Source: a virus
IMG/VR virus record: IMGVR_UViG_3300042691_041303
Coordinates: 1-58,275 of that record
Strand: one strand, 5' to 3'
Length of the DNA stretch: 58,275 nucleotides
Within the stretch, counting starts at the first letter, position 1. Every line of letters begins with the position of its first letter. A model generated the notes under the pieces. It had not been told where the DNA came from, did no database searches, and saw only the letters and a list, made by a program, of their open reading frames with translations. Both the position numbers and the translations under genes were made by a program. This document shows positions 4,033 to 54,329 of the stretch, piece after piece.

Positions 4033-4041
4033 TATAAATAT
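4033..4041 (-). promoter_or_regulatory. Candidate late promoter motif ATATTTATA
   Basis: Minus-strand ATATTTATA ends 12 nt before the ATG at 4020. It lies in the 22-bp gap after the baseplate hub gene, so the 2512-4020 gene may have its own transcript. Confidence 0.55.
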
Positions 4042-48993: not shown

Positions 48994-49686
48994 ATGTCTA
49001 CAAGAAACAATATAATTGATGCCACGGGTTCAAACTATGGTGCGAAGGTTGATAAATACAACACCTTATGGGTTAGAGATTTAGGTATACCACCAACATC
49101 AGATCCAGACGGTACTGGTGGGTCCGCATTAGCATTAGGGGAAGTTCAAACCGCATATAGAGAATACCTAACTTTAAATGGTGATGGTGTGACTTTTGAC
49201 GCAAGAGTTACAGGAACACTAGCATCTCCTGTTAGTTTTTTTGTTGCGGCAGAACAAGGTTTTGATATTTATATAACATCTTTAGCAATCGTGGCTGCTG
49301 GTGGTGGTTTGACACTTGCAAGATTTGGTGGTGGTACCGCACTAACAAACGGTTTAAAATTTTATTATCAATCAGCAAACGGAAATATTATTATCGGTAA
49401 TGATATAAAAAGTTCATTTGATGTTGTAAGATTATGTCAAGGAAATCCGGCATTTACTGATGCTTCATCTGGTGCGTTTATTGCATCAAATGTTATTGGT
49501 GCAAGTGAGGCTTTACTTCAAGTTTTAGATTTTAGAAAAACTTTTGGGTTACCATACGGTATAAGATTAAATACTAGTTCAGTTAATAAGATAGTTATGG
49601 AGGTCAGAGACGCAATTCTAACAACAGGACCAACAACAACTACTCAATTTGATGTAATTGCATACGGAACAAGAATCAAAATTTAA
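48994..49686 (+). CDS. Virion protein, tandem paralog 3 (diverged)
   Basis: A 230-residue protein. NIIDATGSNYGAKVDKYNTL corresponds to the start of the other two, but the rest is longer and more diverged (FDIYITSLAIVAAGGGLTLA, LPYGIRLNTSSVNKIVMEVR). The last is a beta pattern like the ends of the other two. It overlaps the RHH gene by 4 nt at the convergent stop codons, without a terminator. Confidence 0.62.
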   Translation: MSTRNNIIDATGSNYGAKVDKYNTLWVRDLGIPPTSDPDGTGGSALALGEVQTAYREYLTLNGDGVTFDARVTGTLASPVSFFVAAEQGFDIYITSLAIVAAGGGLTLARFGGGTALTNGLKFYYQSANGNIIIGNDIKSSFDVVRLCQGNPAFTDASSGAFIASNVIGASEALLQVLDFRKTFGLPYGIRLNTSSVNKIVMEVRDAILTTGPTTTTQFDVIAYGTRIKI

Positions 49687-49841
49687 GTAATCTCATCCCC
49701 GTATATATCAGTTTTAGTTTTACACTTTTCTTTTATTAATTTTTCAACAAAAGCAAACATTTTAAAACCATTTTTTTGGCAATAATCTTTTAGTATTTTA
49801 TGTGTTTGTGGCGTTATTTTTAAATTTTTGTCCCTTTTCAT
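49683..49841 (-). CDS. Ribbon-helix-helix DNA-binding protein
   Basis: A 52-residue protein from the ATG at 49841. Pattern: a short strand with basic residues (RDKNLKITPQTHKIL), a first helix (KILKDYCQKNGFK), and a second helix (MFAFVEKLIKEKCK), with the turn N-G-F-K between; this fits MetJ/Arc/CopG-type dimeric regulators. A frame extended to 49910 would start inside the palindrome at 49888-49915, so the shorter start is preferred. It may repress its own promoter and affect the sheath promoter next to it. Other DNA-binding small proteins are possible. Confidence 0.65.
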   Translation of the reverse strand: MKRDKNLKITPQTHKILKDYCQKNGFKMFAFVEKLIKEKCKTKTDIYGDEIT

Positions 49842-49887
49842 ATAAGCTTTTTTTATAAGTATGATAAAAGTATCTTTTTTTTCATAG

Positions 49888-49915
49888 TTATTTTGTGGTA
49901 TATACCACAAAATAA
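49888..49915. promoter_or_regulatory. 28-bp perfect palindrome, likely operator
   Basis: Perfect dyad with half-site TTATTTTGTGGTAT and its complement, no central spacer. It overlaps the -7 box of the RHH promoter (minus) and lies about 20 bp before the late motif of the tail sheath gene (plus). A perfect 28-bp dyad in non-coding DNA next to a gene for a dimeric DNA-binding protein is strong circumstantial evidence for an operator. No U tract follows, so it is not a terminator. Confidence 0.75.
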
Positions 49916-49936
49916 ATTTTTTGCTTTTTTTGTCAA
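49908..49936 (-). promoter_or_regulatory. Host-type promoter for the RHH gene
   Basis: Minus strand: TTGACA starting at 49936, 18 nt after the TTG, then TTATTTTG (49915-49908), 7 of 8 to TAnnTTTG. The -7 box is the outer part of the palindrome, so repressor binding would block polymerase. The -7 box lies 66 nt from the ATG at 49841. Confidence 0.6.
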
Positions 49937-49944
49937 TATTTATT
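49936..49944 (+). promoter_or_regulatory. Candidate late promoter motif ATATTTATT (tail sheath)
   Basis: ATATTTATT ends 33 nt before the sheath ATG at 49978. It abuts the TTGACA of the divergent RHH promoter, so early and late promoters stand back to back. Confidence 0.5.
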
Positions 49945-49977
49945 TAGAAATAACATAAAAGAAAAAAAATATTTTCA

Positions 49978-52794
49978 ATGGCAGATAATAAAATTTATGT
50001 ATCACCTGGAGTGTTCACATCAGAAAAAGATTTAACATTTGTATCCCAACAAGTCGGTGTTACCACACTAGGTATTGTAGGTGAAACAACTAAAGGTCCA
50101 GCTTTTGAACCAATATTCGTTACAAATTACGAAGAGTATTCAACAATTTTTGGTGGTCTTAATTCTAAAATTTTCAAGAACGGTAAACCTCAATACGAGG
50201 CTTCTTATATAGCTAAACAATATTTAAAGGAGTCTAATCAGTTATTTGTGACTAGAGTACTTGGGTTAACCGGTTATGATGCTGGTCACGCTTGGGCTAT
50301 TGTTGCTGACGCTAATTATGACCCTTCAACAATAACTACTGCGGCAACAGATACATTTACCGCACAGTTTTCCGGTTCAAGTACAAACTTAACATTTTTT
50401 AACTTTTCACCAGGTTTAGGTGGTTTAGAAGCTTTTGAGTTAATAGACTTATTTGATGGCATAAACGTTAACCCATACACTGGTGTTGGTACTGAATTTA
50501 GTTTACCTGGTGGTGGTCAAATTGCTTGGTCTAAAGTAGGTGGTTCTTTTACTGGTTCTAGTCTTATCGGTGAAGTTACTTCAGAAGACAGTTTTGCTTT
50601 AACTGGTACTGTTTCAGGTAACGTTTATACTTTCACTGCTTCCGCTTATTCACAGTACGAAAATAAAGTAATAGCAATGATTAGGTCTAGAGCTGATATA
50701 ATTGCTGATAATCTATATTGGAGAACAGACCAATCAATTAATGGTTTATTAGGTGATTTTAGTTTAACAGAATTTGACCCACTTGGTAATTTTGTTCTTT
50801 CAGCTGCTAGCTCTGGTTTAACCAGTGTAATTACTTATGACGTATCATTAGATTCTACAAGAAGAAATTATTTACCTAGAGTTATTGGTGAAACTTGTTC
50901 AGATAGAGATACTAGAATTTGGGTTGAGGAAATTTACCCTAATATGTTGATTGATTTAATTTCAAACGGACAAATTTTAGGTCTTAAACCACAACTTTTA
51001 CATTTTAATACTTTCAACAATTACCAACAACAATGGCAAACACCTGAAACTCCTTGGGTTGTTTCTGAACTAAGAGGTAATAAAGTTGAAAAGTTATTTA
51101 AATTTATTTCCATATCAGATGGTAGTGAGGCAAACAGAGAAATAAAAATTTCAATACAAAGAATTAATTTAGAAGATAAAACTTTTGATGTTGTTGTTAG
51201 ACAATTTAATGATTTAGATTCTAGACCACAAATTTTAGAAGCATTTTCTAAATGTTCTTTAGACCCAACAGATAGATCTTTTATTGGTGAAAGGATTGGT
51301 ACTGCCGATGGTGAATATGTTTTAAAAAGTAGATTTATAATGTTGGTTTTAAACCCAGAAGCACCAATAGATGCTTTCCCTGCTGGTTTTGAGGGGTATA
51401 GAGTTAGAGATTATGTTTCCTCAACGTCAGTTTCAGCAAAAGCACCTGAATTAGAATATAAAACTACTTATGATTTAGTTAACGATAAAATAAGAAAAAC
51501 TTATTTAGGTTTATCTGATATTGTTGGTATTGACCAAAACATGTTTAATTGGAAAGGTTATACTAACGATTCAACACCTAATATGTGGACTGCTACAACA
51601 AAAGGTTTCCATTTAGATAGTGGAGCAACAGTAGCTGGTGATTTTATTGTTGGCTGTTGTCCTTTTACAGACGCTTTAGCAATAGTTGACACTGTTTATG
51701 AGAGTGTTAACGCTAGGAAATTTACTTTTGTACCTTATTTAGGTTTTGATGGTTGGAATTGTCATAGAGAAAGTAGTACAGTACCTAGAACAAACACTGA
51801 TAGATATAGAATTGGTAGAACAGGTTTTTCTAATGGTTTAGCTAACGGTGAGTTTATACAAATATCTAATACTGAAGCTACTTCAGATTATTACGCATAC
51901 TTAGGGGCTATTAGAACTTTTGCTAACCCTGAAAGTGTGAATATAAACGTGTTTACCACACCTGGTATAGATTACCAAGATAACGCTGATTTAGTTCAAG
52001 AAACTATAGATATGGTAGAAGAAGAAAGAGCTGACTCTATTTATATCGTAACTTCACCTGATGGAGCTGTAGACGACAACACAACATTTGACCTATCTTC
52101 TTTAGGATTTAGTAGTATCGATAAATTAGGTCCAGAAGACATCGTTGATGTTTTAGAAAACGCGGATATTGACTCTAACTACACTGCTACTTATTGGCCT
52201 TGGTTACAAATGAGAGATAGTGAAAATAGTGTTAACATTTTCTTACCACCAACGTTGGAGGTTGTTAAAGATATCGCCTTAACAGATAATATAGCTTTCC
52301 CTTGGTTCGCGACAGCTGGTTACACAAGAGGTAGAACTGAGGCTATTCAACCTAGAATAAAATTAACTGAATCACAAAGAGATACACTTTATGAAGGTAG
52401 AATTAATCCTATGGCATTTTTCTCTGATGAGGGTACTTTAATTTGGGGTAATAAAAACCTACAAATTAGAGATTCAGCTTTAGATAGATTAAATATTAGA
52501 AGATTATTATTACAAACTAGAAAACTAATTTCAGCGGTAGCGGTTAGATTGTTATTTGAACAAAATGACCAAATAGTAAGAAACCAATTCTTAAATTTAG
52601 TTAACCCTATTCTAGATAATATTAGAAGAGAAAGAGGTTTAGCTGACTTTAGAGTAGTTCTTTCTAGTGACCCAGAAGAAATAGATAGAAACGAAATGAG
52701 AGGTAAGATTTATATTAAACCTGTACCTACATTAGAATTTATTATATTAGAATTTAATATTACTCCGACTGGAGCGTCATTTGACGACATCTAA
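49978..52794 (+). CDS. Tail sheath protein (T4 gp18-like)
   Basis: A 938-residue contractile sheath subunit. The N-terminus IYVSPGVFTSEKDLTFVSQQ, followed by TLGIVGETTKGPAFEP and FGGLNSK, is the standard sheath start. The C-terminal domain with RRERGLADFRVVLSSDPEE and KIYIKPVPTLEFIILEFNIT contains the polymerising handshake. SDRDTRIWVEEIYPNMLIDL and AFPWFATAGYTRGRTEAIQP are further family blocks. T4 gp18 has 659 residues; the extra length lies in the middle (about 130-400), the part that forms surface protrusions. It is the clearest marker of a myovirus here. Confidence 0.93.
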   Translation: MADNKIYVSPGVFTSEKDLTFVSQQVGVTTLGIVGETTKGPAFEPIFVTNYEEYSTIFGGLNSKIFKNGKPQYEASYIAKQYLKESNQLFVTRVLGLTGYDAGHAWAIVADANYDPSTITTAATDTFTAQFSGSSTNLTFFNFSPGLGGLEAFELIDLFDGINVNPYTGVGTEFSLPGGGQIAWSKVGGSFTGSSLIGEVTSEDSFALTGTVSGNVYTFTASAYSQYENKVIAMIRSRADIIADNLYWRTDQSINGLLGDFSLTEFDPLGNFVLSAASSGLTSVITYDVSLDSTRRNYLPRVIGETCSDRDTRIWVEEIYPNMLIDLISNGQILGLKPQLLHFNTFNNYQQQWQTPETPWVVSELRGNKVEKLFKFISISDGSEANREIKISIQRINLEDKTFDVVVRQFNDLDSRPQILEAFSKCSLDPTDRSFIGERIGTADGEYVLKSRFIMLVLNPEAPIDAFPAGFEGYRVRDYVSSTSVSAKAPELEYKTTYDLVNDKIRKTYLGLSDIVGIDQNMFNWKGYTNDSTPNMWTATTKGFHLDSGATVAGDFIVGCCPFTDALAIVDTVYESVNARKFTFVPYLGFDGWNCHRESSTVPRTNTDRYRIGRTGFSNGLANGEFIQISNTEATSDYYAYLGAIRTFANPESVNINVFTTPGIDYQDNADLVQETIDMVEEERADSIYIVTSPDGAVDDNTTFDLSSLGFSSIDKLGPEDIVDVLENADIDSNYTATYWPWLQMRDSENSVNIFLPPTLEVVKDIALTDNIAFPWFATAGYTRGRTEAIQPRIKLTESQRDTLYEGRINPMAFFSDEGTLIWGNKNLQIRDSALDRLNIRRLLLQTRKLISAVAVRLLFEQNDQIVRNQFLNLVNPILDNIRRERGLADFRVVLSSDPEEIDRNEMRGKIYIKPVPTLEFIILEFNITPTGASFDDI

Positions 52795-54298: not shown

Positions 54299-54329
54299 AA
54301 AATGGTATGAGTTTAACTCATACCATTTT
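54299..54329. terminator. Bidirectional terminator overlapping a stop codon
   Basis: Arms AAAATGGTATGAG (54299-54311) and complement (54317-54329), loop of five. The stop codon of the minus gene at 54313 lies in the loop, so its last codons are in the stem. Confidence 0.9.

Follow-up and report, generated by a model that had tools for sequence, protein, structure and literature searches.

A candidate half-site array for a small ribbon-helix-helix-like protein encoded opposite the tail sheath gene of uncultured phages

The virus record IMGVR_UViG_3300042691_041303, analysed here over its whole 58,275 nucleotides (the window), carries a gene for a 52-amino-acid (aa) ribbon-helix-helix (RHH)-like protein that diverges from the gene for the tail sheath protein. 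Between the two genes lie the late motif of the sheath gene, a pair of promoter-like sequences, a perfect 28-bp dyad and, adjoining the dyad, an array of three short half-sites (Table 1). A preliminary description of this DNA took the dyad to be the operator of an autoregulated switch that could also gate sheath synthesis. Based on comparison with related viruses, we propose that the operator of the RHH gene is most likely the array rather than the palindrome.

Results

An RHH-like gene faces the tail sheath gene

The RHH gene is a single gene whose 3′ end shares 4 bp with a convergent open reading frame (ORF; 48994–49686). The fold predicted for its product has a basic N-terminal stretch followed by helices at residues 11–24 and 28–39 (mean predicted local distance difference test (pLDDT) score 70); the N-terminal strand is not formed in this monomer model, and a single-sequence prediction (pLDDT 65) likewise lacks it. 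Foldseek ranks 1–7 are taken by Arc, ParG, TacA2 and CopG, all at E ≥ 0.59. Residues N6, K8, I9 and T10 are invariant across an alignment of 18 RHH relatives, and the Pfam model RepB-RCR_reg (PF10723) matches 16 of 18 family members at E up to 1 (best E 2.4e-4). The window protein itself scores 15.3 bits against this model (cut-off 21) and 14.6 bits (E 0.042) against Omega_Repress (PF07764; cut-off 33.3). A profile search of solved structures gave SUMO-type chance matches in 27 of 28 rows, and SvtR (PDB 2kel) at E 0.16. We conclude that the 52-aa protein is likely to have an RHH fold. The helices and the Foldseek ranking agree with the identity given in the preliminary description; the Pfam and Foldseek scores do not.

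Relatives of the RHH protein are encoded on 202 IMG/VR stretches with the window protein as the query, and on at least 450 with an alignment as the query, the best 80 matches per search being retained. Synteny was analysed in 238 RHH loci that had been retrieved by protein and extend 160 nt or more upstream of the gene, the window included; they represent 134 distinct upstream regions. A divergent sheath gene faces the RHH gene at 237 of these loci (133 of the 134 distinct upstream regions), and the start-to-start distance is 130–169 nt in 120 of the distinct regions. The lone exception is a second RHH copy in L027 (L027:7313; also L164:7893), which has its own copy of the late-motif and array region and faces a 567-aa gene beside a tail-fibre-like gene; the 567-aa gene has no PHROG match. 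When loci were instead retrieved with the sheath protein, 78 of 82 were usable, with a divergent RHH gene in 70 and none detected in 8.

The sheath protein has matches in 2577 named phage records, every one less than 60% identical. At an E value of 1e-3, the RHH protein has no match among 50,697 named phage records and none in PHROGs. Of 291 stretches from a search of GTDB genomes, one was confirmed: a 51,360-bp contig (L202; QCKH01000012.1) in a Prochlorococcus single-cell genome, which is either a host clue or a co-sorted virus. Among titles and abstract openings in the literature, we found no description of this RHH family or of a GIY-YIG-RHH homing fusion.

Table 1. Features of the divergent RHH–sheath region and its two genes (positions in the window)
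Feature	Position	Strand	Basis and remarks
52-aa RHH-like protein gene, beta strand KNLKIT	49683..49841	-	ORF list, relatives, predicted fold
Half-site 3, TCATAC	49859..49864	-	usual place -23 from ATG; conserved in 43-sequence profile
Half-site 2, AGATAC (2 mismatches to TCATAC), 11 bp from half-site 3	49870..49875	-	starts 68 bp from sheath late motif
Half-site 1, inverted, CTATGA (1 mismatch to GTATGA)	49882..49887	-	sequence and 43-region profile
Perfect 28-bp dyad TTATTTTGTGGTAT/ATACCACAAAATAA	49888..49915	.	lineage-restricted, variable sequence; abuts half-site 1
TTATTTTG, putative -7 box of host-type promoter	49908..49915	-	consensus match only; varies in relatives (by eye)
TTGACA, putative upstream promoter element	49931..49936	-	consensus match only; 18 nt from TTG to TTATTTTG
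Late motif ATATTTAT of tail sheath gene	49936..49943	+	motif count; kept as ATAAATAT on RHH strand in 43-region profile
Tail sheath gene, 938 aa	49978..52794	+	ORF list; Pfam and PHROG sheath models match

A half-site array accompanies the RHH gene

The array (49859–49887) consists of an inverted AGTATGA followed by TCATAC twice at 11-bp spacing. In relatives, GTATGA lies at about −46 and TCATAC at −34 and −23 relative to the start codon. When 43 non-redundant regions were profiled, the information content at the array columns came to about 1 to 2 bits. The TAGTATGA site is favoured in this profile because it served as the anchor; the two tandem sites are not so favoured.

We scanned IMG/VR for a 20-mer of the array, TCATACTTTTRTCATACTTA, and found it in at least 120 stretches. 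In the 117 newly fetched loci, 116 of 117 occurrences precede an RHH gene and have a sheath gene running away from it on the other side; neither holds for the one in L186. The distance to the RHH gene is 31–35 bp in 108 loci and 116–186 bp in 8 loci with inserts. One class of insert, of about 110–150 bp and with repeated tacccctataaaatcaaa-like units, lies directly after the array and before the RHH start (L052, L053, L089, L115, L130, L131, L169, L197 and L230).

The array also goes with the RHH gene among loci retrieved through the sheath protein. Array scores are 13–19 of 19 in the 70 loci with an RHH gene and 11–13 in the 8 without a detected one, and each of the latter scores is under the 95% level of its own shuffles. 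Further copies of the array in the window are not above the chance number. In 11 long records searched at up to 2 mismatches, 14 places match; 11 of these are the RHH locus, and the other three each have 2 mismatches. Hence, the array is not a general promoter. The reversed-pattern control for this search is not clean, since the pattern nearly repeats when read backwards.

Half-site sequence follows the protein clade

Sheath-based retrieval brought in a second RHH clade (clade B), in which the beta strand reads IKN[LI]KIS instead of ending in KIT as in clade A. The clade B array has the same geometry as that of clade A, with half-sites reading TCT[AG]CC (TCTRCC). We compared strand and half-site type in 192 protein/upstream pairs (141 KIT, 48 KIS and 3 others). 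The array is TCATAC-type (scored AA) in 112 of 141 KIT rows, with 21 weak and 8 mixed or mis-called, and TCTRCC-type (scored BB) in 38 of 48 KIS rows, with 5 mixed, 1 AA and 4 weak; the 3 rows with D or K at that strand residue are all BB. Four KIT rows scored as BB are mixed by eye (L201, L338, L366 and L400), each pairing a TCATAC with a site of the TCTACC or TATACC type; the arrays of L201, L366 and L400 hold one site of each type. The features that bear on whether the RHH protein might, as in the MetJ/Arc/CopG fold, contact repeated half-sites as a dimer through its beta ribbon are the 11-bp pitch of the array and the co-change of half-site and strand residue, the latter a single switch.

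The array lies at a fixed distance from the sheath late motif

The late motif reported for the sheath gene holds up in counts across the window, in which 65 ORFs were taken by us as genes: 12 of 23 occurrences of ATATTTAT, that of the sheath gene among the 12, lie in sense 10–60 nt upstream of genes, versus 0.65 expected. A late-type motif, ATATTTATA, precedes genes on both strands of the window, with 9 of 12 occurrences in sense 10–60 nt upstream, including sites at 2021, 33845, 42447, 47192 and 55103 (+) and at 4041, 7786, 30843 and 55045 (−).

In the window, 68 bp separate the late motif from the first tandem half-site (49943 to 49875). To obtain unambiguous rows, we dropped arrays scoring below 14 and near-duplicates, which left 43, and then 3 rows with tied late motifs, 68 being among the ties in each. 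The spacing is 68–69 bp in 35 of the remaining 40 rows, 58 bp in 4 and 79 bp in 1. The 58-bp rows, two of which (L382 and L419) are close relatives, are all B-type (28 of 32 B-type rows at 68–69 bp); the 79-bp row is A-type (7 of 8 at 68–69 bp). A larger, partly overlapping clade A set of 55 rows was drawn from 124 regions by dropping 8 for a poor array and then near-duplicates, with 2 of 3 ties re-assigned by hand. Here, 51 of 55 rows share one value to within 1 bp, and the others deviate by −10, +11, +11 and +12, two of these four owing to extra or rearranged half-sites. The distance from sheath start to late motif is 26–41 in 52 of the 55 rows. Deviations of about one helical turn, with free intervening sequence, point to physical coupling across the gap. 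In such coupling, the sheath promoter could be paired either with the RHH protein in its bound state or with the RHH promoter acting as one unit.

On the RHH strand of clade B, the late-type motif is positive in 37 of 44 rows, and in 34 of 44 it lies at −26/−25 of the first tandem half-site. In L382, by eye, this motif shifts together with the array. We also observed CAAAAG on the RHH strand (CTTTTG on the sheath strand). Among 80 rows, 47 match it at 5 or more of 6 letters, and in 44 of these it lies 20–21 bp from the late motif of the sheath gene; no such element was noticed by eye at other late genes of the window.

The dyad varies while the array persists

The perfect dyad beside the 52-aa gene is exactly as first described. 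It is single in the 58,275-base record, so the search for further copies that was suggested with it yielded none there, and at up to 3 mismatches it occurs in 0 of 100 shuffles. Its 22-mer core occurs on one other IMG/VR contig, likewise at an RHH locus. Across relatives, a dyad at the expected place exceeds shuffled sequence (p < 0.02) in 13 of 43 non-redundant regions, its centre lying 14.5–16 bp from half-site 1 in all 13, and 24 of 28 columns of the dyad zone carry less than 0.8 bits in the 43-region profile. A dyad score of at least 10 is reached in 74 of 299 rows, among which there are 22 different dyad sequences, and nearly all the dyad carriers listed have the KN[LI]KIT strand. Because dyads vary across rows that share this strand, there are many dyads but one half-site per beta strand. 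When placed on the sheath tree, which has 132 non-redundant rows, the dyad requires 16 changes; it is found in 29 of 83 A-type, 0 of 39 B-type and 0 of 10 weak rows.

In relatives, the dyad position holds different or non-palindromic sequence even where the protein, including its KN[LI]KIT strand, is nearly identical. The preliminary description had named this very outcome as one that would overturn the palindrome as operator, and we rejected the dyad as the main RHH operator since it varies or is missing in relatives that keep the protein, while the array persists. The 28-bp dyad is thus probably not the RHH operator; it may have a core-promoter role for the RHH gene in some lineages or be a site for another protein. 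The host-type promoter said to overlap it is present as letters (TTGACA at 49936–49931 and TTATTTTG at 49915–49908, 18 nt after TTG), but by eye TTGACA is not retained in nine near relatives (L008, L013, L019, L021, L026, L039, L041, L047 and L069). With the late-type motif at a set place before the clade B RHH gene, this leaves the early/late pairing of promoters in the preliminary description as no more than a possibility.

Two other palindromes were seen. One sheath locus with no RHH gene or array detected (L353) carries, ahead of the late motif of its sheath gene, a near-palindrome that resembles the window dyad (TTTTTTGTGGGT...ACCCCAAAAAA). In the window, a perfect 15-bp inverted repeat with a 1-base spacer, AAAATGGTATGAGTT/AACTCATACCATTTT, lies at a gene end (54299–54329) and contains GTATGA/TCATAC. 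This repeat is probably a terminator; the hairpin was unseen in nine near loci, some of which perhaps do not extend that far.

A GIY-YIG nuclease carries a copy of the RHH domain

Two loci have an additional ORF of about 450 bp between the array and the RHH gene (L293, from 3540, +, 150 aa; L321, from 3542, +, 149 aa). In each, a GIY-YIG domain that passes the Pfam cut-off (E 2.3e-5 and 6.4e-5) is followed by a C-terminal copy of the RHH domain. There is a full-length nuclease match at the same place in L320, and remnants of the nuclease are found in L286/L287, L284/L179 and L235; altogether, 7 of 434 sequences (loci plus the window) have a nuclease match. A GIY-YIG homing-type element seems to have taken over the DNA-binding domain of the regulator, and an RHH-bearing nuclease of this type beside the array is what would be expected if the RHH domain recognises the array.

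Discussion

We consider it probable that the RHH protein is an autorepressor acting on the array, that the array is phased with the late sheath promoter, and that the dyad is a separate element. The features read from the sequence are the synteny, the array, its co-occurrence with the RHH gene, the switch of half-site with protein clade and the phased spacing; from these, we infer that the protein binds DNA and acts as a repressor, where the core promoter lies, and how the sheath gene might be affected. The protein, as a dimer or as stacked dimers, would occupy the three half-sites shortly before its start codon and there, over or just past its own transcription start, would repress its own gene. 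The array would sit on a fixed helix face relative to the sheath late promoter, 68 bp away; hence, the bound protein, or the RHH promoter and operator as a unit, would probably also tune sheath transcription. The dyad would be a separate, fast-evolving element at the position of the RHH core promoter. Of the sheath-gating switch first envisaged, the shared regulatory region and probable autoregulation stand, and the phased spacing makes coupling more plausible; what falls away is the palindrome as its means. More tentatively, and with a little less than an even chance of being right, the protein may be a one-target regulator whose phased operator contacts or paces the late machinery and so sets the dose of sheath, the operator having switched together with the protein, and the nuclease having taken the domain in order to home.

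Several observations weigh against this proposal. The fold call is made on weak scores, with no Foldseek match at E ≤ 0.001 and a window protein below every Pfam cut-off. Half-sites 1 and 2 are degenerate in the window, leaving one perfect half-site. The array scores of sheath loci with and without an RHH gene touch at 13, and within the 85 nt next to the start no array is recognisable in 21 of 141 KIT rows, through inserts or rearrangements. The strand state changes once on the sheath tree, giving 1 independent pair, so the association of protein with half-site is one evolutionary event and, statistically, one contrast; it is helped by the mixed-array intermediates. The fixed spacing could arise if it is the two promoters that are coupled, and not the protein with the sheath promoter. 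Lastly, a late-type motif precedes the RHH gene in clade B, but in clade A its frequency on the RHH strand does not exceed chance (9 of 120 rows versus 24.7 expected), so it gives no general answer for the RHH promoter.

Other explanations start from the dyad. An RHH dimer on the dyad might block its own host-type promoter and gate the sheath gene. A dyad that is perfect, unique in the record, beside the RHH gene and over a promoter-like match would suit this model, as would its steady distance from half-site 1 wherever it is significant (13 regions) and the recurrence of its 22-mer core at another RHH locus. Yet the 22 sequences it takes in rows that mostly share one beta strand, its significance in 13 of 43 regions, its absence from B-type rows, the 16 changes on the tree and the loss of TTGACA in relatives make this model very unlikely. 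The dyad might instead be a transcription terminator or an RNA hairpin, such as a leader or anti-readthrough element. Its arms co-vary in many lineages, which this explanation accounts for as paired changes that preserve a structure, and L353 has its near-palindrome upstream of sheath with no RHH gene detected. However, template switching on a quasi-palindrome might also have produced the paired arm changes. Whichever strand is read, the arms are T-rich at 5′ and A-rich at 3′, opposite to the order in an intrinsic terminator; the dyad would fall outside the RHH RNA if the transcript starts near the array, as the clade B late-type motif suggests; and it is not significant in 30 of 43 regions. 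We therefore regard a terminator or hairpin as doubtful.

The array, in turn, might be a promoter or activator site for another phage factor, with the RHH gene a mere neighbour. TAnnTTTG is the −7 box of Bacteroidetes-type promoters, and TACTTTTG within the array fits it. Against such a site, the array sequence follows the RHH clade, and the array was not found where an RHH gene was not found; we think this explanation unlikely. The protein could also be the orphan antitoxin half of a toxin–antitoxin pair, since its size and fold resemble the N-terminal domains of RelB- or ParD-type antitoxins, and TacA2 is among its Foldseek matches. No toxin gene adjoins it in an operon, as would be expected of a RelB/ParD-type system: the window gene ends inside the convergent ORF directly downstream, the next ORF is also on the opposite strand in L027 and L235, and the protein has little space for a toxin-binding tail. 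An antitoxin therefore appears highly improbable.

Known RHH regulators offer partial parallels. Arc dimers bind neighbouring half-sites, and Arc acts in a temperate immunity region. This repressor of phage P22, a phage RHH protein of similar size, is the top Foldseek match of the window protein (E 0.59, not significant); its setting differs from the one described here, at the tail sheath gene of a contractile-tailed phage. The nearest functional parallel is SvtR, a small RHH protein of an archaeal virus. SvtR is reported to repress its own gene and to have its highest affinity for the promoter region of a tail-fibre structural gene, where its site is some 80 nt away from TATA/BRE; a role in restraining a late virion protein has been proposed (PMC5569661). 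The window protein, too, is small, viral and RHH-like, and a candidate site lies near both its own gene and a tail structural gene: 133 of 134 distinct regions face a sheath gene, as do 116 of the 117 array occurrences listed. SvtR differs in being archaeal, with TBP/TFB promoters, several sites and an imperfect inverted repeat, whereas here there is one divergent region with an 11-bp array; and SvtR and the window protein have no sequence relation beyond a weak match (PDB 2kel, E 0.16).

The RHH autorepressor RelB binds repeated 6-bp sites on one helix face of relO; spacing is essential, and neither a 2-bp nor a 10-bp insertion between half-sites is tolerated (PMC2812701). RelB belongs to a toxin–antitoxin pair, whereas here no toxin is seen and the array, with respect to the sheath promoter, shifts in whole helical turns. 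A partition role is described for Omega/ParB of pSM19035, which recognises short direct and inverted repeats; its 7-bp repeats must be contiguous for full activity (PMC9499535). The use of short direct and inverted repeats would be common to Omega and the window protein, which matches Pfam Omega_Repress below the cut-off (E 0.042).

The kind of regulator is already known, and the RHH family and its setting are new. The family would provide a natural series of matched protein/operator pairs, with intermediates, in which the evolution of RHH specificity can be studied, and it gives clear predictions for a divergent promoter pair. The late genes of T4-type phages are generally taken to be under common control. 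If our proposal is true, many uncultured phages would, in addition to a general late programme, use a small dedicated repressor to control one virion gene, that of the tail sheath; among contractile-tailed lytic phages of the T4 type, single-gene control of this sort would be out of the ordinary.

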